This document shows, piece by piece, positions 1-10,000 of a stretch of 10,000 bases of DNA. This stretch comes from Candidatus Hydrogenedens sp. (GTDB taxonomy: Bacteria > Hydrogenedentota > Hydrogenedentia > Hydrogenedentales > Hydrogenedentaceae). Position 1 is the stretch's first letter, and each line of letters starts with the position of its first letter. A program made the translations under genes and the position numbers. The notes under the pieces are model-generated. The model worked only from the letters and a program-made list of their open reading frames with translations. It was not told the DNA's origin and did no database searches. The DNA lies in contig JAIWNQ010000179.1 of the NCBI GenBank assembly GCA_020216745.1, positions 1-10,000 on the forward strand, written 5' to 3'.

Positions 1-399
1 TAATACGAGTGTATTATCACTTTGACTTAAAAACCCATGAGCAAAACCTATAGGGACCCAAAGTAAACTCAAATCATCAGAAGATAAATGGAACCCTTCC
101 CATTGTCCAAATGTAGGTGAACCTTTTCGTAGGTCGACAATAACGTCGTATATTTTTCCTGAGAGACAGCATACAAGTTTGCCCATACCATGAGGGTCTA
201 ACTGGTAGTGCATGCCTCTCAAAACGCCCTTTTGCGATTTACTTAAATTGTCTTGAACAAAGTCTTCATGAAACCCTACTTTTTTTAATTCTTCCAGATG
301 ATATAATTCGGTGAAGAATCCACGGGTATCATTGAAGGTACCAATTTTAAAGAGAATAGCCCCTTTTAGCCTGCTATTTTCAATACCTTTTATAATCAT
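1..399 (-). CDS. rfbC: dTDP-4-dehydrorhamnose 3,5-epimerase, 3' end beyond window
   Basis: RmlC/RfbC epimerises C3 and C5 of dTDP-4-keto-6-deoxyglucose in the cytoplasmic dTDP-L-rhamnose pathway, which feeds O-antigen and other surface polysaccharides. The frame is open from an ATG at 399 to base 1 (133 codons); the family is usually about 180 residues, so the last quarter is off-window. Visible family signatures are FNDTRGFF (22-29), FVQDNLSKS (47-55), GVLRGMHYQ (58-66), KLV..LSGKIYDVIVDLR (74-91), GSPTFGQW (93-100) and LWVPIGFAHGF (113-123). H64 in RGMHYQ is the expected catalytic base. The catalytic Tyr normally follows GFAHGF by a dozen or so residues and would lie just past the edge. An AAGGA ribosome site at 406-410, 6 nt from the ATG, supports the start. 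The gene is divergent from the beta-galactosidase gene. Other rml genes would have to lie outside the window. Confidence 0.95.
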   Translation of the reverse strand, partial: MIIKGIENSRLKGAILFKIGTFNDTRGFFTELYHLEELKKVGFHEDFVQDNLSKSQKGVLRGMHYQLDPHGMGKLVCCLSGKIYDVIVDLRKGSPTFGQWEGFHLSSDDLSLLWVPIGFAHGFLSQSDNTLVL

Positions 400-436
400 A
401 AGCAATCCTTTTTTATATTAGTAGTTGAATATTTAC

Positions 437-455
437 TATTAAAAGCCTTTTAATA
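437..455. repeat. 19-bp perfect inverted repeat in rfbC/lacZ divergent region
   Basis: TATTAAAAG-C-CTTTTAATA: two 9-bp arms around a single C, with no mismatch. It lies between the divergent rfbC and beta-galactosidase genes and overlaps the proposed rfbC -10 by four bases, a plausible place for a dimeric repressor to bind. It is not followed by a T-run in either direction, so a terminator is unlikely. The operator role is inference. Confidence 0.45.
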
Positions 456-460
456 TATCA
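452..460 (-). promoter_or_regulatory. candidate extended -10 promoter for rfbC
   Basis: Read on the minus strand this is TGATATATT, a TGn element followed by a five-of-six match to TATAAT. No good -35 is visible 17 bp upstream. It would start transcription near 445 and give a leader of roughly 45 nt before the rfbC ATG. It abuts the inverted repeat at 437-455. AT-rich background makes chance matches common, so this is tentative. Confidence 0.35.
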
Positions 461-500
461 AAATTTTTATATGTGTAGTATTTTAACATTGATTAACTGA

Positions 501-3719
<3,219 letters not shown>

Positions 3720-3739
3720 TTATGAAGAAAACAGAAACT

Positions 3740-5239
3740 TTATTTTGAGTATACTTTCCTCTCAAATGCGTTTGGAATATTCATTTCTTCTCGATATTTG
3801 GTTACGGTTCTTCGTGCTATTTTAATGCCTTCTTGTTTTTGAACCTGTTCGGCTATTTGCTGGTCGCTCAATGGTTTTGATTTGTCTTCTTCATCAATGA
3901 TTCGTTGAATGATTGTTTTGATAGTCCGTGATGAAATTTCTTTCTCGCTGGTTTCAGATTTTTTACCCCCTGTGAAGAAGTATTTTAATTCAAAGATTCC
4001 TTGAGGGGTAGACATATATTTTTTCGCAATGCATCTTGAAATTGTGGATTCATGGATTCCTAATCGGCTGGAAATATCTTTGTATGTCATTGGTTTTAAG
4101 TGTTCAACACCATTTCTGATAAAATCTTCCTGTAGGGTCACGATTTCTTTGGCAACTCTGTAAAGGGTAGAGTTTCTTAAATCGATACACCTTTTGAGGC
4201 GTATGGCAGACTCTTTATATTTGCGAAGTTGAGCCTTATCCTCACTGGGTAAACGTTTTATTTGTTCCTTAGGTATTGTTTCTACGATTTTGATACTCGG
4301 GGTGATTTTATCTTCCAGTTCAATAGTAATCTCGTCTTCTTCATTTATCTTTACTATAATATCTGGAATGATATATTCAGGTTCCTCGGCAAATTCATGT
4401 CCAGGATAAGGATTTAATGTGTCTCGGAGTAGTTTAATGAGTTCTTCGACCTCATGGGGTTTTATATTCAATCCTTTTGCAATTTTCAATATTTGCCGAT
4501 GAATAATCTCATCATGATATTCTTCAATCAGTTTTTGTAAGAAGGGATTATCAGGGAAAAGACGTTTTACTTGAATTAAAAGGCATTCTTTTAAATCTCT
4601 GGCACCTACGCCAGGAGGGTCAAAACTCTGGATTTTTTTAAGTATTTTTTCTATGTCCTCCGTTGAGGTATTGAATGCTTTTGCAATTTCTTCAATATCA
4701 CCAACAAAATAACCTCTTTGGTCGATGCTCGCTATAATGCTTTCGCCAATTTCAATCTCTTTCTCGTTGTCTGTATCTATTCTTAGTTGTTTTATTAGAA
4801 AACTTCTTAATGACTCATGATATTTTTGGTTTGCAAAGCGTTTTTCTGCCCACTCGTCTATATCGGGGTTATAACTTAAATTTGTGGGATTTTTGTATCT
4901 ATCATCATCTTTTTCTAAATCAAAATATTTCTGATTGGCTTCTTCTTGTTCATATTCATAATCATTTTCATCATCGATATCAGGTTCGTCACGAGTATGA
5001 ATAGGTGTAGTTTCGGTAATGGTTGAGGTATTTTCTGTCTCAAATAAATCGTCTGTTGTTGGCGTTTCTACCAGATCGTGATATTCTAATTCGATAAGTG
5101 GGTTTCCATCTGCCTCTTGATGAATATATTGTTCTAATTCATAAATTGGCATTTGTAAAATTTGTAAGGATTGAGTCTGAAATAGGGATAATTGAAGTTC
5201 CTGTCGTTGTTGTAATGTTTGTCTGGCTTCTAACTTCAT
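3740..5239 (-). CDS. rpoN: RNA polymerase sigma-54 factor RpoN
   Basis: Sigma-54 directs core RNA polymerase to -24/-12 promoters and needs an AAA+ enhancer-binding activator to open DNA. The 499-residue protein has normal family length. Region I (1-50) is rich in Gln and Leu, with the typical QSLQILQMPIYELEQYI...NPLIE pattern that contacts the activator. Region II (about 51-120) is strongly acidic, with runs of Asp and Glu. The core-binding domain follows (about 125-330). The helix-turn-helix lies at about 384-408, followed by TPQGIFELKYFF (411-422). The diagnostic RpoN box ARRTVTKYRE is at 475-484, 15 residues from the end. The start ATG has a modest AGGGA about 8 nt upstream. The gene stands alone, without the lptB or hpf partners common beside rpoN, and converges on lacZ. 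Candidate targets or activators are not visible in the window. Confidence 0.97.
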   Translation of the reverse strand: MKLEARQTLQQRQELQLSLFQTQSLQILQMPIYELEQYIHQEADGNPLIELEYHDLVETPTTDDLFETENTSTITETTPIHTRDEPDIDDENDYEYEQEEANQKYFDLEKDDDRYKNPTNLSYNPDIDEWAEKRFANQKYHESLRSFLIKQLRIDTDNEKEIEIGESIIASIDQRGYFVGDIEEIAKAFNTSTEDIEKILKKIQSFDPPGVGARDLKECLLIQVKRLFPDNPFLQKLIEEYHDEIIHRQILKIAKGLNIKPHEVEELIKLLRDTLNPYPGHEFAEEPEYIIPDIIVKINEEDEITIELEDKITPSIKIVETIPKEQIKRLPSEDKAQLRKYKESAIRLKRCIDLRNSTLYRVAKEIVTLQEDFIRNGVEHLKPMTYKDISSRLGIHESTISRCIAKKYMSTPQGIFELKYFFTGGKKSETSEKEISSRTIKTIIQRIIDEEDKSKPLSDQQIAEQVQKQEGIKIARRTVTKYREEMNIPNAFERKVYSK

Positions 5240-5267
5240 TAAATTTGTCCCTATCGAATCGCTCTTG

Positions 5268-5296
5268 TTTATAATTGAAATTAGTGATTTACAAAA
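5268..5296 (-). promoter_or_regulatory. weak candidate promoter for rpoN
   Basis: On the minus strand, TATAAA (5273-5268) could be a -10. Upstream lies TTGTAA (5294-5289, 15-bp spacer) or TTTTGT (5296-5291, 17-bp spacer). Neither pairing is strong. It is suggested because the position, about 30 bp before the rpoN ATG, is suitable and nothing better is seen. Confidence 0.25.
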
Positions 5297-5353
5297 TTAC
5301 ATAAAATATTTTACCAAAAAAGTGAAAATTTGATACTAATTAATTCATATTTG

Positions 5354-5371
5354 TGTTATAATATTATAACA
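5354..5371 (+). promoter_or_regulatory. extended -10 inside an 18-bp perfect palindrome
   Basis: TGTTATAATATTATAACA is fully self-complementary. Its first half contains TGT-TATAAT (5354-5362), a perfect extended -10 for the gene starting at 5394, giving a leader of about 24 nt. The best -35-like hexamer, TTGATA at 5330-5335, sits 21 bp away, which is too far to be convincing. The core TTATAAT-ATTATAA resembles a Fur/PerR-type box without the usual central base. Because the palindrome covers the -10, a bound dimer would block the promoter; this is inference. Confidence 0.5.
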
Positions 5372-5393
5372 AGAGAAGGTAAGAGGCTAAATA

Positions 5394-5843
5394 ATGAAAT
5401 TTAGTTTACATGTGTTGATTATATTAGTATTGATTATTTATTCGCTATCAGGGATAAATTTAAATAGCAAAACGAATGTGGTCGCATGGCAGGCTGTATT
5501 AACATCAATTCTCACTCAAACGAATGGATTAGATGTTACTATATTAAATAACGATGTTAATGGGGACACAAAGGTTGATGTATGTGACTTGTGTGTGATT
5601 GTGAACAAGATGAAACAGAATGATGGGAACGTTCCAAAATCCAGAAATATTAAGAACCAGTATGTGTGTTTACATATACGATATGAGGATATAAACAAAA
5701 GTGTAAATGAAAGTAAAGAAACGAACAGTTTTGATGAAAACGAATTTGAAGAAATACAGATGTTACGTGTATTAAAAAATTATTTGGAGAGAAATGTTAA
5801 GACAGTTGATATCCTGTATATATCCCCGCCTTTACGATGTTAA
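5394..5843 (+). CDS. small exported protein with dockerin-like repeat
   Basis: A 149-residue protein of no recognised family as a whole. Residues 1-20 form a signal peptide (Lys2, then a Leu/Ile/Val core). Right after it, residues 22-40 read NLNSKTNVVAWQAVLTSIL, which aligns in register with a type I dockerin half-repeat but lacks most acidic calcium ligands. After 32 residues, the usual dockerin spacing, comes a good half-repeat DVNGDTKVDVCD (54-65) followed by the expected hydrophobic helix. Residues 74-149 are hydrophilic, with an acidic stretch, and match nothing I recognise. Dockerins normally bind cohesins or dock enzymes to scaffolds, but none is visible here. AAGAGG at 5381-5386, 7 nt from the ATG, supports the start. 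The next gene begins 83 bp downstream behind its own promoter-like sequence. The cysteine near the C-terminus is not in a known sorting motif. Confidence 0.75.
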   Translation: MKFSLHVLIILVLIIYSLSGINLNSKTNVVAWQAVLTSILTQTNGLDVTILNNDVNGDTKVDVCDLCVIVNKMKQNDGNVPKSRNIKNQYVCLHIRYEDINKSVNESKETNSFDENEFEEIQMLRVLKNYLERNVKTVDILYISPPLRC

Positions 5844-5862
5844 ATAAAAATTAATTTTCCAG

Positions 5863-5889
5863 TTGTTTATAACTTTTATGTGGTACAAT
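5863..5889 (+). promoter_or_regulatory. candidate promoter of the large EF-hand/PEG-repeat gene
   Basis: TGG-TACAAT at 5881-5889 is an extended -10 with one mismatch. TTGTTT at 5863-5868 could be a -35 with a 15-bp spacer, somewhat short. A start near 5896 would leave a leader of about 30 nt that holds the AAGGAG ribosome site (5912-5917, 9 nt before the ATG). It implies the large gene can be transcribed independently of the gene upstream. Confidence 0.45.
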
Positions 5890-5926
5890 TTAAAGAAATT
5901 AAAATTAATAGAAGGAGAATAAAAAA

Positions 5927-8900
5927 ATGAATAACAGGAAGTTAAATTTGAAGAAAGTACGTTGGATTTTATGGGCTTTATTAATTAGTTGTTTTATTTA
6001 TATATGCCCAGCAGGAGCACAAACAGACGCAGAGGTAGATTATTGTAATATTCCTAATTGCAGTAATTTAATACCAGGTCCTCTGTATACAGAAAGTTTT
6101 GAAAATTCAATGCGGGAATTATATGCCAAAATTCCATTGATTGGAGGAAATCCTGATAATCTTGATTTGGACTTTGATGGGATGAAGGATACCGCTCAGG
6201 CTCGTTTATTCGATACGATTATGGAAAGTTTTTCATTGATTGGTGGGATACCTACCCGTAATTGTATTTATTGGGCTTATGTAGGCAATCGTTTGAAGGT
6301 TGAAGCGTTGGCTCTTGCTATACAAGCAGGCTGGCCTACTCAATATTTAGGCGAACCACCAGACCTTGAGGGTATGAAAACCTTCTTTGCAGCACTGGCG
6401 ACAATGGGAAATACTGCAATTATAAATACGATTTTATCTGCATTAAATTGGATTATTCCTGACCTACCTGACTTATCCTTGTTAGAATTAGATGGTTCAA
6501 ATATTGTTTACTTAAATGCCAAAGGTGATGCGGATTTGGACGGTGTCTGCAATATTGGTGAATACAAAGCATGGGTTTTAAATGGTTCTGTAGATTTTGA
6601 TGCTTTTGTAAATGCGGCGATTAACAGTAGTATTACGGACTACTATGGTGGATGTCCATCCTGTGGAACGGAAGGAACTGTTGAAGGAGAAGGCGAGGGT
6701 GGAGGTCCACCTCCTTGTGATATGCGTTCTGATGAAAATTACTTTGCATTATTAGTGATGTTTGGTGATACAAATGGTGATGGTAAATTAACAAAGAATG
6801 AATTAAAAGCCTTTGTTACAGGTTTCCTTTTAGATTTAGGATGGTGGTTGATTGATAAAGATGGTGATGGTTTTATGTCCTTTGATGAATTTGTCGCCAG
6901 TAATCGTTTGGGTGGACTTTTACCTGCAAACCTTGATTCAAATGGAGATAATCAGGTAACTCTAACAGAAATAAGACAATTAAGTTCAAAGATTACGCAA
7001 GACCAATTTAATCAGCATGATGTTGATGGTAATGGCTATCTTGACTGCATCGATATTATGGGTCCACTTCCAGAATCCTGCTATGCTGAATGGTGTTGGG
7101 ATACATGTAATCAGACCGCAGTAAGTGCGGGATTTGAAACTGCATTACGTAGTTTGTATGGACTTGCTACCTGGCTTGGATTAAATCCTGACACAGCTGA
7201 TATAGACGGAAATGGAATGTATGATGTGGCTCAGGCAAGGTTATTGGATTATATTCTTGCCCATCCGGAATTGCCTGTTTTCTGCTGTGTGAAGAACGCA
7301 TACATGAATAATCGTGTTGTGGCTCAAGGAAAATGGGAATCTATTCCCCTTATTGGACAGGTATTTACACCTACTACTTTTATTAATGTAATTGCTGGGG
7401 TTTTAACGACAGGGGAGCAGTCATTAATCAACTCCGTTGTAAGTATCATTGATACACTATTATTCTGGACAACATTTACCCTTAATGAATATGATCTAAC
7501 AGCTGGGCAATATCTTACATCAGCAGGTGACCCCGATTTTGATGGAGTTTGTAATGTGGGTGAATATAAAGCCTATGTGTCTGCACCTACAGATATAGAT
7601 ACCTTTATACTTGCATCTTTAGATATTAATCAGGCAGTAAATGGTGGTGGTTGCCCACTTTGTCCAGGTACTTATGAAGGCGAACCCCCTTGTAATATTG
7701 AGGATATTACGCATTATTATTATATCTTGATTATGTTTGGTGATACAGATGGAAATGGATTATTATCCAAGGAAGAACTTAAAGCCATTACAGGTTGGAG
7801 TGATACCGCTTTGTCATTGTGGGGGCTGGTTGATACAAATGGCGATAATCAGTTATCTCTTGAAGAGTTTTCTAAAGTAGAATGGTTGTATAACCTATTG
7901 CCAGGATTAGATGGGAATAATGATGGTGCCCTTACGCTTATAGAATTGCAAAACTTGAATTCAAATATAACAGTTGACCAATTAAATGCGGTGGATTTAA
8001 ATCAGAACGGTGCACTTGATTGTGAAGACTTTGTGTTTGCAGAAGGTGAAGGTGTGATTGAAGGAACTCCTGAAGGAACTCCAGAGGGTATTCCTGAGGG
8101 TACACCTGAAGGAATCCCAGAAGGTGAAGGCGCAGTCGAAGGAACTCCCGAAGGGACTCCAGAGGGTATTCCTGAGGGTACACCGGAAGGAACCCCAGAA
8201 GGTGAAGGTGTGATTGAAGGAATTCCTGAAGGGACTCCAGAAGGGGTTGTCGAGGGGGAACCACCTACATGTGATATAGATGATATTGAGCATTATTTCT
8301 TGTTAATGCTTATCTTTGGAGATACCAATGGTGATGGTTTGCTATCCAAGAGTGAATTTAAAGCCCTTACAGGTTGGAGTGATTGGATGATTTTCTTATA
8401 TTGGTATGTTGTTGATAAGAATCGTGACGATCAACTATCGTATGAAGAATTTACAACAGTAAGTACTATTTTTAATCTGTTACCTAAATTAGATTCTAAT
8501 GGTGATAATGTCCTGACTTTAAGCGAAGTGCGTGGTTTAAGTTCAGGTATAACACAACAACAGTTTGATGTAGCAGACAAAAATCATAATGGCGTAATAG
8601 ATTGCTCCGATTTTCTGTCTTCTCCCGAAGGTGAGGGTACACCAGAAGGTGTTCCTGAAGGACAACCAGAAGGAGTTGTAGAAGGCACGCCAGAAGGCAC
8701 GCCAGAGGGTGTTCCAGAAGGACAGCCAGAAGGAGTTGTGGAAGGCACGCCAGAAGGCACACCAGAGGGTGTTCCAGAAGGACAACCAGAAGGAGTTGTG
8801 GAAGGCACGCCAGAAGGCACACCAGAGGGTGTTCCAGAAGGACAGCCAGAAGGAGTTGTGGAAGGCACGCCAGAAGGCACACCAGAGGGTATTCCAGAAG

Positions 8901-9418
8901 GTACACCAGAAGGAGTTGTAGAAGGTACGCCAGAAGGTGTTCCTGAAGGACAGCCAGAAGGGGTTGTAGAAGGAACGCCAGAGGGTATTCCAGAAGGTAC
9001 ACCAGAAGGGGTTGTAGAAGGCACACCAGAGGGTGTTCCTGAAGGTACACCAGAAGGAGTTGTGGAAGGTACACCAGAAGGTACACCAGAAGGTGTTCAA
9101 GAGGGAGAACCGTTAATAGTTCCTCATAATATAGATACCAATGGAAATTGGAAAATTGAACTTACAGAGTTACTTCGTTTGATTCAATTATTTAACTCAT
9201 TTGGTTATCATTGTGACCCACAAGGTGAGGATGGATATAATCCAGGTAACAATCCAGATATGAGAGATTGCAAACCTCATGCAAGTGATTATGACCCTCA
9301 AAATTGGCGTATTGACCTCAATGAACTGTTAAGAGCAATACAGTTCTTTAATTCAGGTGGTTATCATGCATGCAGAGATGGTGAAACTTGCGAAGATGGT
9401 TATAATCCTGGTATTTAA
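5927..9418 (+). CDS. exported modular EF-hand protein with PEG-repeat linkers
   Basis: A 1163-residue exported protein, not assignable to a named family. A signal peptide (basic RKLNLKKVR, hydrophobic core) ends at AGA-Q (31/32). Module A occurs at 40-247 and 385-579; each copy has AQARL(F/L)D, two EF-like loops (D80 and D201; D425 and D535), DGVCN(I/V)GEYKA and a closing GGCPxC. Module B occurs at 264-379, 589-704 and 782-899; each starts with Cys and carries four EF-hand loops (starts 281, 310, 337, 365; 606, 636, 662, 690; 799, 830, 856, 884). Acidic Glu-Gly-x-Pro linkers lie at 248-263, 705-781 and 900-1064. The C-terminus (1065-1163) holds two related segments sharing N-W-(K/R)-I-(E/D)-L-x-E-L-L-R, each followed by a Cys-containing EDGYNPG tail. 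There is no transmembrane tail, LPXTG or PEP-CTERM motif. Calcium-stabilised surface, adhesion or scaffold function is inferred; no catalytic domain is seen. Confidence 0.92.
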   Translation: MNNRKLNLKKVRWILWALLISCFIYICPAGAQTDAEVDYCNIPNCSNLIPGPLYTESFENSMRELYAKIPLIGGNPDNLDLDFDGMKDTAQARLFDTIMESFSLIGGIPTRNCIYWAYVGNRLKVEALALAIQAGWPTQYLGEPPDLEGMKTFFAALATMGNTAIINTILSALNWIIPDLPDLSLLELDGSNIVYLNAKGDADLDGVCNIGEYKAWVLNGSVDFDAFVNAAINSSITDYYGGCPSCGTEGTVEGEGEGGGPPPCDMRSDENYFALLVMFGDTNGDGKLTKNELKAFVTGFLLDLGWWLIDKDGDGFMSFDEFVASNRLGGLLPANLDSNGDNQVTLTEIRQLSSKITQDQFNQHDVDGNGYLDCIDIMGPLPESCYAEWCWDTCNQTAVSAGFETALRSLYGLATWLGLNPDTADIDGNGMYDVAQARLLDYILAHPELPVFCCVKNAYMNNRVVAQGKWESIPLIGQVFTPTTFINVIAGVLTTGEQSLINSVVSIIDTLLFWTTFTLNEYDLTAGQYLTSAGDPDFDGVCNVGEYKAYVSAPTDIDTFILASLDINQAVNGGGCPLCPGTYEGEPPCNIEDITHYYYILIMFGDTDGNGLLSKEELKAITGWSDTALSLWGLVDTNGDNQLSLEEFSKVEWLYNLLPGLDGNNDGALTLIELQNLNSNITVDQLNAVDLNQNGALDCEDFVFAEGEGVIEGTPEGTPEGIPEGTPEGIPEGEGAVEGTPEGTPEGIPEGTPEGTPEGEGVIEGIPEGTPEGVVEGEPPTCDIDDIEHYFLLMLIFGDTNGDGLLSKSEFKALTGWSDWMIFLYWYVVDKNRDDQLSYEEFTTVSTIFNLLPKLDSNGDNVLTLSEVRGLSSGITQQQFDVADKNHNGVIDCSDFLSSPEGEGTPEGVPEGQPEGVVEGTPEGTPEGVPEGQPEGVVEGTPEGTPEGVPEGQPEGVVEGTPEGTPEGVPEGQPEGVVEGTPEGTPEGIPEGTPEGVVEGTPEGVPEGQPEGVVEGTPEGIPEGTPEGVVEGTPEGVPEGTPEGVVEGTPEGTPEGVQEGEPLIVPHNIDTNGNWKIELTELLRLIQLFNSFGYHCDPQGEDGYNPGNNPDMRDCKPHASDYDPQNWRIDLNELLRAIQFFNSGGYHACRDGETCEDGYNPGI
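8039..8269 (+). repeat. PEG-repeat linker 2, 78-bp higher-order repeat
   Basis: An in-frame low-complexity stretch coding for EG followed by TP, IP, VI, AV or EG pairs. The higher-order unit is 26 residues (78 bp): a VI-led block, then an AV-led block, then a shortened VI-led block ending in VVEGEPPT. It separates module B2 from module B3. The protein is acidic, proline-rich and predicted to be extended. Confidence 0.85.
8624..9112 (+). repeat. PEG-repeat linker 3 with 60-bp tandem copies
   Basis: The basic unit is a 12-bp tetrapeptide, EG plus TP, VP, IP, QP or VV. From 8641 to 8880 there are four 60-bp copies in perfect phase, each coding the same 20 residues. The copies at 8701, 8761 and 8821 differ from one to the next by one or two bases. 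The first copy differs from the second at five positions, all synonymous. A diverged fifth unit follows, then 48-bp (16-residue) variants. The G-rich Glu/Gly/Pro codons make this stretch visibly richer in GC than its surroundings. It is prone to copy-number change and to misassembly. Confidence 0.92.
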
Positions 9419-9439
9419 TTGAAAAAGCAGACCTAACAG

Positions 9440-9471
9440 TATCCGCCGAAATTTACGAATTTCGGCGGATA
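9440..9471 (+). terminator. strong rho-independent terminator after the EF-hand/PEG gene
   Basis: ATCCGCCGAAATT (9441-9453) pairs without mismatch with AATTTCGGCGGAT (9458-9470) around a TACG loop, a UNCG-type tetraloop sequence. An extra T-A pair at 9440/9471 extends the stem to 14 bp. A T-rich tail TTTATTTTA follows. It begins 22 bp after the stop codon at 9418 and separates this gene from the next one. Confidence 0.88.
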
Positions 9472-9480
9472 TTTATTTTA

Positions 9481-9489
9481 TGATATAAT
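9481..9489 (+). promoter_or_regulatory. candidate extended -10 promoter for the gene at 9545
   Basis: TGA-TATAAT is a perfect extended -10 lying 10 bp past the terminator stem. No -35 consensus is present at the right distance, where the terminator's right arm lies. A start near 9496 would give a leader of about 50 nt carrying the GGAG ribosome site at 9535-9538. Confidence 0.45.
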
Positions 9490-9544
9490 TTCTTCAATTT
9501 TATTGGTATGTTTCCCCTTCCAAAACTAAAGAGTGGAGAAATCT

Positions 9545-10000
9545 ATGTTATTGACATCTCTTCTAATGATTTTTGTAAGTTATCAATTGCCTGAATGGAT
9601 ATTTGATAATCCCGATATTTTGCAGAAATGGGTGCCGAATGGACAAGTCCAAGATGTAAAAATAGAGGATGGGAAATTGCATGGCAGGACACAGGGCACA
9701 GACCCATATCTTTTATGCGAAGGTATTGAATTTATCTCAACCCCTTATCAATACATACATATTCGCATGAAAACGAATCATGGCGGTATGGGGCAGATAT
9801 TCTGGTCTGGAACAAATGAAGGACAATATGGGGGACTATCGGGAGATAAATCTGTTAATTTTAATTTTGAAGAGAAGGATGATTGGCAAGATATTTATGT
9901 TTTTCCTTTCTGGCATAAAGAGGGGAAAATTATCAAAATACGATTGGATTTGTGTGATGCTCTGGAATTTGAATTAGAGAAAATTTCTGTAAAAACATGG
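9545..10000 (+). CDS. exported protein with beta-sandwich-like domain, 3' end beyond window
   Basis: The frame is open from the ATG at 9545 to the last base (152 codons) with no stop, so the gene continues off-window. GGAG at 9535-9538, 6 nt before the ATG, supports the start. Residues 1-14 (MLLTSLLMIFVSYQ) form a short hydrophobic leader with no positive charge, probably a signal peptide. Residues 15-152 begin with PEWIFDNPD and contain alternating hydrophobic strands, with KIEDGKLHGRTQGTDPYL, YIHIRMKTNHGGMGQIFW and a C-terminal strand pair around IKIRLDL. This resembles the concanavalin-like or carbohydrate-binding beta-sandwich domains often placed ahead of catalytic domains in secreted proteins of environmental bacteria. 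The family is not certain. Any enzymatic domain would lie downstream. It follows a strong terminator and is probably a separate transcription unit. Confidence 0.85.
   Translation, partial: MLLTSLLMIFVSYQLPEWIFDNPDILQKWVPNGQVQDVKIEDGKLHGRTQGTDPYLLCEGIEFISTPYQYIHIRMKTNHGGMGQIFWSGTNEGQYGGLSGDKSVNFNFEEKDDWQDIYVFPFWHKEGKIIKIRLDLCDALEFELEKISVKTW

Follow-up and report, generated by a model that had tools for sequence, protein, structure and literature searches.

How an exported bacterial protein carrying some eighteen EF-hand-like calcium loops is held in place, and as part of what structure, is the question raised by a 10,000-nucleotide stretch of Candidatus Hydrogenedens sp. (assembly GCA_020216745.1, contig JAIWNQ010000179.1, positions 1 to 10,000 of the forward strand), hereafter the window. 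An intact open reading frame (ORF) with an ATG start, at 5927..9418 (+), encodes a mosaic protein of 1163 residues in which two modules A, three EF-hand modules B and a C-terminal pair of calcium-loop units, here called the twin, follow one another in the order A-B-A-B-linker-B-linker-twin. We read this product, with a confidence that stops just short of an even balance, as an exported, calcium-stabilised surface protein held by a phylum-specific dockerin-like module in an assembly of the cohesin/dockerin type. The interest of the locus lies in the twin rather than in the loop count.

The twin (9119..9415, +) consists of two tandem units of calcium loop plus helix, as seen in the alignments and in the predicted structure, and each helix is followed by a beta hairpin and a cysteine pair; the unit pattern read from the alignments is HSADxNxDxxIxLSELLRVIQFFN...GYHC...EDGYxPG. 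In an alignment of 93 twins (A4, comprising the window twin and 92 drawn from 103 ORFs with a motif requiring E-L-L-R..Q..N-like helices), cysteines C37 and C56 are kept in 91, C90 in 84 and C101 in 83, and Tyr63 and Trp68 of the second loop are present in all. Each of the two helices likewise keeps its Arg, Gln and Asn throughout that alignment, which counts for little, since the collection patterns and the extraction motif demanded those residues and deviating copies exist (L204, L208 and L221). The second loop, which the sequence-only reading took to be degenerate, is 13 residues long instead of the canonical 12 in 91 of the 93 twins and is thus a conserved feature. The AlphaFold2 model is confident (pLDDT 94), and all 12 PDB entries among the fold matches listed are dockerins (Z 2.1-4.0, without demonstrated sequence homology). 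Like type I dockerins (PF00404), which include the closest solved folds among the matches listed, the twin has two tandem calcium-loop-plus-helix units and many exported carriers; it differs from them in its 13-residue second loop and in the hairpin and cysteine pair that follow each helix, and it gives no profile match above the cut-off. At most single EF-hand loops are recognised in twins by Pfam, and the module is unlisted in the domain libraries searched. As neither the dockerin profile cut-off nor two canonical loops are reached, the twin is not classed here as a dockerin.

The module is abundant in its phylum. In the window's own genome it occurs at 23 places at E 0.01 and 22 at 1e-5, and among the first 30 genomes searched (own included) 22 carry it, in numbers from 1 to at least about 151 copies per genome. 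Across 68 Candidatus Hydrogenedentota genomes it was found in 41. Family f5 contributes 2 of its 25 genomes and the remaining families 39 of 43, the four misses all lying in f4. Large counts are lower bounds, as 150 of 238 candidates were scored in genome G022 and at most 74 per genome in the phylum search. In a collection of 84,980 species, the 79 twin loci retained are all titled Hydrogenedentes, Hydrogenedentota or uncultured bacterium; since at least 514 stretches matched and the best 80 were kept, occurrence in other phyla is possible.

Where the twin sits, and on what, bears directly on its role. Of the 101 twin ORFs whose end is known, 96 have their last helix motif 27-39 residues before the C-terminus. 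An EG-rich stretch precedes the twin in 39 of 69 complete ORFs, and in a crude comparison based on longest frames a hydrophobic N-terminal stretch was found in 58 of these 69 versus 4 of the 65 internal controls. The names given in the source records, viewed for 120 of 162 proteins, describe the carriers as C1 peptidases and as PASTA, Ig-like, P-domain and LRR proteins; further carriers are trypsin-like proteases, a zinc carboxypeptidase, an Ig-like protein and a cohesin protein. One module at the extreme C-terminus of tens of unrelated exported proteins is also what would be expected of a signal for secretion or sorting that an export machine recognises and that may then be cut off, in the manner of type IX tails, an explanation that we consider unlikely. 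Both type IX and PEP-CTERM tails lie at the extreme C-terminus; the former are cut off after export, and the latter also have a membrane helix and a basic end. The twin, however, has copies, perhaps not all functional, that stand N-terminally after a signal peptide in C134 and C253, and likewise in L137 with one motif, and that lie within a long frame in L096; no membrane helix following it was seen by eye in the alignments, and the export machine itself was not searched for. The occurrence of both N-terminal and C-terminal twins fits a place-independent module, as dockerins are, better than a signal that must come last. At L056 (G000 C253:7719-8819), the twin lies straight after the signal peptide and is followed by what is, judged by eye, probably a formylglycine-enzyme-like domain. 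A different C-terminal type, with a Cys-Gly motif, a membrane helix and a basic end, is present on exported proteins of the same genome (L059:355-2841, L069:857-5566 and L069:9809-12514); by eye it resembles MYXO-CTERM or GlyGly tails.

A second alternative, to which we assign a still lower probability, is that the twin is an end cap or dimerisation unit stabilised by calcium and disulphides, with no dedicated receptor. Its two calcium loops and two largely conserved cysteine pairs would suit such a unit, and a receptor has not been found; yet conservation extends beyond the calcium ligands to Tyr63 and Trp68, and family f5 is nearly devoid of twins while the other families keep them.

On the dockerin-like interpretation, the protein would be exported, whereupon calcium would fold the B modules, closed by their end cysteines, into compact blocks separated by EG-rich linkers acting as flexible spacers. 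The twin would then behave as dockerins do, plugging the mosaic into a cell-surface receptor that it would share with tens of further exported proteins. A small dockerin-type protein encoded next to the mosaic may form part of this calcium-dependent assembly outside the cell, where cohesin proteins, at least some of them with a C-terminal twin of their own, would probably catch it. Module order, the EF-hand character of the B modules, the twin's copy number and mostly C-terminal position, its confident predicted fold and the gene pairing are what has been shown; docking is inferred from them. The broader proposal, which we hold possible and somewhat less probable than the interpretation of the mosaic itself, is that Hydrogenedentota possess a surface-display system of their own, in which a dockerin-folded tag with no detectable sequence kinship to known dockerins beyond the calcium loop, borne by up to about 150 exported proteins per genome, would dock in a calcium-dependent manner to a receptor; the structural core of the system would consist of EF-hand arrays together with the small dockerin-type proteins.

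The gene pairing concerns a small secreted protein of 149 residues with one weak dockerin unit, encoded at 5394..5843 (+) as the first gene of a conserved pair. In seven distinct loci, each from a different genome, an equivalent small gene lies upstream of the mosaic gene at a distance of 62-130 bases, counted from the small gene's last sense codon; it is also found upstream in L263. Among the 30 genomes it adjoins all eight loci encoding A followed by B, as well as G005:C200, where the contig ends after A1; no small gene precedes the A-A protein without B at L091/L232. The best 25 of 42 matches to the small family include 11 that have a cohesin match no more than 9 kb away (in 10 of these no more than 2.3 kb) and 12 that have an EF-hand match no more than 3.2 kb away (one also near a cohesin), a count in which the distance limits were chosen with the coordinates in view, four EF-hand places are surplus and the EF-hand place of C105 comes from another search. 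Two of the other three matches immediately precede a gene for a different type of EF-hand array. Genomes of about 3-7.5 Mb contain 0 to 7 cohesin matches each; judged from this density, a vicinity of this order would probably not arise by chance. The same genes bear on the sequence-only proposal of a rod or scaffold, putatively stiffened by calcium, which is plausible and gains indirect support from the small dockerin-type genes adjoining both mosaic and cohesin genes; the proposal is partly supported.

In the window's own genome, seven cohesin and eight Dockerin_1 matches exceed the cut-off, and among 14 control genomes cohesin does so in one and Dockerin_1 in two. At C292 (L055:1192-4499, G000), two dockerin genes are followed by a gene encoding a cohesin and a twin and then by a gene with a sub-threshold cohesin match (E 0.05), a cluster that possibly represents a minimal adaptor scaffold. 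One protein at L069:857-5566 matches both cohesin and dockerin, gives a further cohesin match below threshold and has a membrane tail; it is a possible anchoring scaffold.

Several observations weigh against the proposed docking. The Z scores relating the twin to dockerins are low; of 18 twins, Pfam Dockerin_1 recognises 2 when E values up to 10 are admitted, the best at E 0.027 and below the cut-off; and a twin profile compared with six dockerins of the same genome aligns over one loop only (15 columns, probability 25%). The dockerin unit of the small Hydrogenedens protein is itself weak, with E values of 0.0094 (PF00404, below cut-off) and 0.0051 in two copies and no match in the third (L098). 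In alignment A7 the clear dockerins are 17-30% identical to the small protein of the window, and the label rests on such members, L051 (50.8 bits) among them. Cohesin and twin counts correlate weakly across the 30 genomes (Spearman 0.50) and in the 24 that are at least 90% complete (0.40, p 0.05), with cohesin count versus genome size giving 0.55; cohesins occur without twins in G007, G020, G025 and G029, and twins without a cohesin match in G023 and G027. Finally, no receptor for the twin was found, and two guesses, a trypsin-like protease and module A, failed. Given the weak count correlation, cohesin is kept open as the receptor and not claimed.

The first of these guesses arose from a trypsin-like protease ending in a twin, which is a frequent carrier in twin-poor genomes; as a general sorting partner it was rejected, because its protease part is unmatched, among the matches listed, in four genomes of the window's own genus. 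Related proteins of 826-865 residues with a terminal twin were observed in twin-poor genomes (L207, L208, L210, L216 and L220), three of which (L207, L208 and L220) match trypsin-like peptidase. No recurring receptor gene was noticed in 20 twin-poor neighbourhood stretches from 9 genomes, analysed with crude gene calling in which the first motif found twins in 10 of the 20 stretches and some frames were probably on the wrong strand. Module A was rejected as receptor or obligate partner as well. In the first 30 genomes its matches are confined to the ten genomes with at least 18 twins, but the phylum search gave no A match in G047 (60% complete) despite its 43 twins, and gave weak A matches in genomes with few or no twins.

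The remainder of the mosaic is consistent with an exported, calcium-binding structural protein. A probable Sec signal peptide (about residues 1-31, 5927..6019, +) was judged by eye, and homologues that keep their N-terminus are also hydrophobic there. The pattern D-x-[DN]-x-[DN] occurs 17 times versus a mean of 1.5 and a maximum of 7 in 1000 shuffles, and the strict form D-x-[DN]-x-[DN]-G 12 times versus 0.2 and 4. These 17 regular loops and the irregular second twin loop make up the 18 that the sequence-only reading had counted, at residues 80 and 201 in A1, 425 and 535 in A2, 281, 310, 337 and 365 in B1, 606, 636, 662 and 690 in B2, 799, 830, 856 and 884 in B3, and 1070 and 1121 in the twin. 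The B modules comprise residues 264-374 (B1, 6716..7048, +), 589-699 (B2, 7691..8023, +) and 782-893 (B3, 8270..8605, +), each with four EF-hand loops. They match EF-hand_1 at 104.2 bits (cut-off 25.4) and EF-hand_7 at 87.2 (cut-off 30), and the predicted structure has paired helix-loop-helix geometry with fold matches to EF-hand structures (for B1, to EF-hand pairs; B2 is likewise supported by profile, loop pattern and fold match, and B3 by profile and loop pattern), so that the calcium-loop-rich, EF-hand character proposed for the protein holds for these modules. Profile and fold matches link the B modules to the EF-hand superfamily (PF00036, PF13499), with calmodulin, MCFD2 and calcineurin B among the fold matches; the present protein differs from that superfamily in being exported, in having three four-loop copies with terminal cysteines and in the adjoining module A. 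The cysteines noted at the module boundaries do begin and end each B module (C264/C374, C589/C699 and C782/C893); those of B1 and B2 are invariant columns in a 10-sequence alignment, and disulphides may close these modules. Every one of the 12 B loops carries calcium-ligand residues (Asp, Asn or Glu) at positions 1, 3, 5 and 12, which would also suit an EF-hand part that senses or buffers calcium, as small EF-hand proteins of the periplasm do, and is no scaffold. We regard this as improbable, because an assembly of several parts outside the cell is what the long linkers, module A, the twin and the neighbouring small dockerin-type gene point to.

Module A has no named family; it is a mobile, helical domain, and each copy contains two calcium-type loops. 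It was delimited in alignment A6 as residues 50-245 (A1, 6074..6661, +, helical in the predicted model) and 396-578 (A2, 7112..7660, +), and A2 recurs in other exported proteins. Position 12 is Gln in the first loop of each copy, and tight calcium binding there is therefore doubtful. No Pfam match was obtained, 11 members giving no EF-hand row at E up to 1, nor was a PDB sequence match (best row E 0.1), and the stretches used in the EF-hand fold match do not cover it.

In the whole protein, Pfam places EF-hands well above cut-off and no other family above it, and NCBIfam gives no family above cut-off; no enzyme family, the finding that would have overturned the sequence-only description, thus reached its cut-off in A or B. 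The NCBIfam rows for FliH, XopAW and lanmodulin, far below cut-off, were set aside as low-complexity or generic EF-hand matches, as were the circumsporozoite and OCM3 rows of the PDB search. The module order is indeed unnamed in the libraries searched, yet it is not unique, as nine database homologues (P0001-P0009, some of them fragments) share the A-B design; three carry an organism name, in each case from Candidatus Hydrogenedentota, and the nearest, named Candidatus Hydrogenedens sp., is 99% identical across residues 30-705. At identities of 45-99%, these sequences share many invariant positions among their loops, cysteines and core. Complete homologues keep A-B-A-B, with a third B in P0001, P0002 and P0008 and none in P0003-P0007. 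The order A-B-A-B-B described from the sequence stands as to its modules, with the qualification that an EG-rich linker of about 74 residues (linker 1, 8040..8260, +, tandem repeats with DNA periods of 12 and 78 bases) separates B2 from B3; linker 2 (8630..9112, +) also consists of tandem repeats, and EG-rich linker length varies among the homologues. The twin, treated in the sequence-only reading as an appendix, is present as described and is a very abundant module in its own right.

Known systems offer partial parallels. Cellulosomes combine a scaffoldin bearing several cohesins with dockerin-bearing polysaccharide enzymes, and their adaptor scaffoldins unite a single cohesin with a single dockerin. 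At C292, the cohesin-twin protein resembles the latter in having one cohesin and one dockerin-like module, and differs in that the twin is not a Pfam dockerin and the phylum is another. For Cloacimonadota, a cohesin/dockerin system has been proposed with a large scaffoldin of tandem cohesins and canonical dockerins (PMC8542988); that uncultured phylum likewise bears C-terminal dockerins on exported enzymes, whereas Hydrogenedentota have another tail module in many copies and few cohesins. Dockerins in Hydrogenedentes were noted earlier as annotation counts (PMC9377139). In titles and abstracts, with few full passages and with subscription papers mostly outside the scope, no description of the twin, module A or the EF-hand mosaic was found. 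Should the proposal be correct, a single unlisted module would display much of the secretome of an uncultured phylum. It would give annotators a family marking exported proteins, many of whose genes now have no clear name, and would offer protein engineers a new plug that depends on calcium. Finding the receptor would put to the test how exported proteins are retained by these bacteria, and the paired EF-hand and small dockerin-type genes provide a concrete starting place.

Around the pair, the window, L081 and L098 seem to share a conserved gene order, in which a GH2 beta-galactosidase and, on the opposite strand, rpoN are followed by the small secreted protein, the EF-hand mosaic and a further gene (assigned by Pfam for GH2 and rpoN in the window and for the last gene of L081, WbsX/GH99-like, and by eye for the remainder). 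A sigma-54 promoter, an idea prompted by the neighbouring rpoN, was rejected, with 4 pattern matches in the window versus 3.5 expected. A terminator-like hairpin of 16 pairs (9438..9473, +) lies 3' of the pair 5394-9418 and rests on a consensus scan that gave 4 sites in the region versus 2.6 expected. Many small dockerin-type proteins (A7 members; L253-L258 and L242) finish with a short tail containing two prolines, such as NAPP, HAPP or SPP followed by a few more residues. EF-hand arrays of a second type were observed at L051:981-4073, L214, L217, L223, L253, L254 and L257; they end in a twin wherever the end is visible (L051, L214, L217 and L223), and a small dockerin-type gene lies upstream of them in L051, L253, L254 and L257. 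Within the window, the DNA repeats at 8040-9094, with periods from 12 to 78, code for the EG linkers, and the reverse open frames that run across them are probably by-products.

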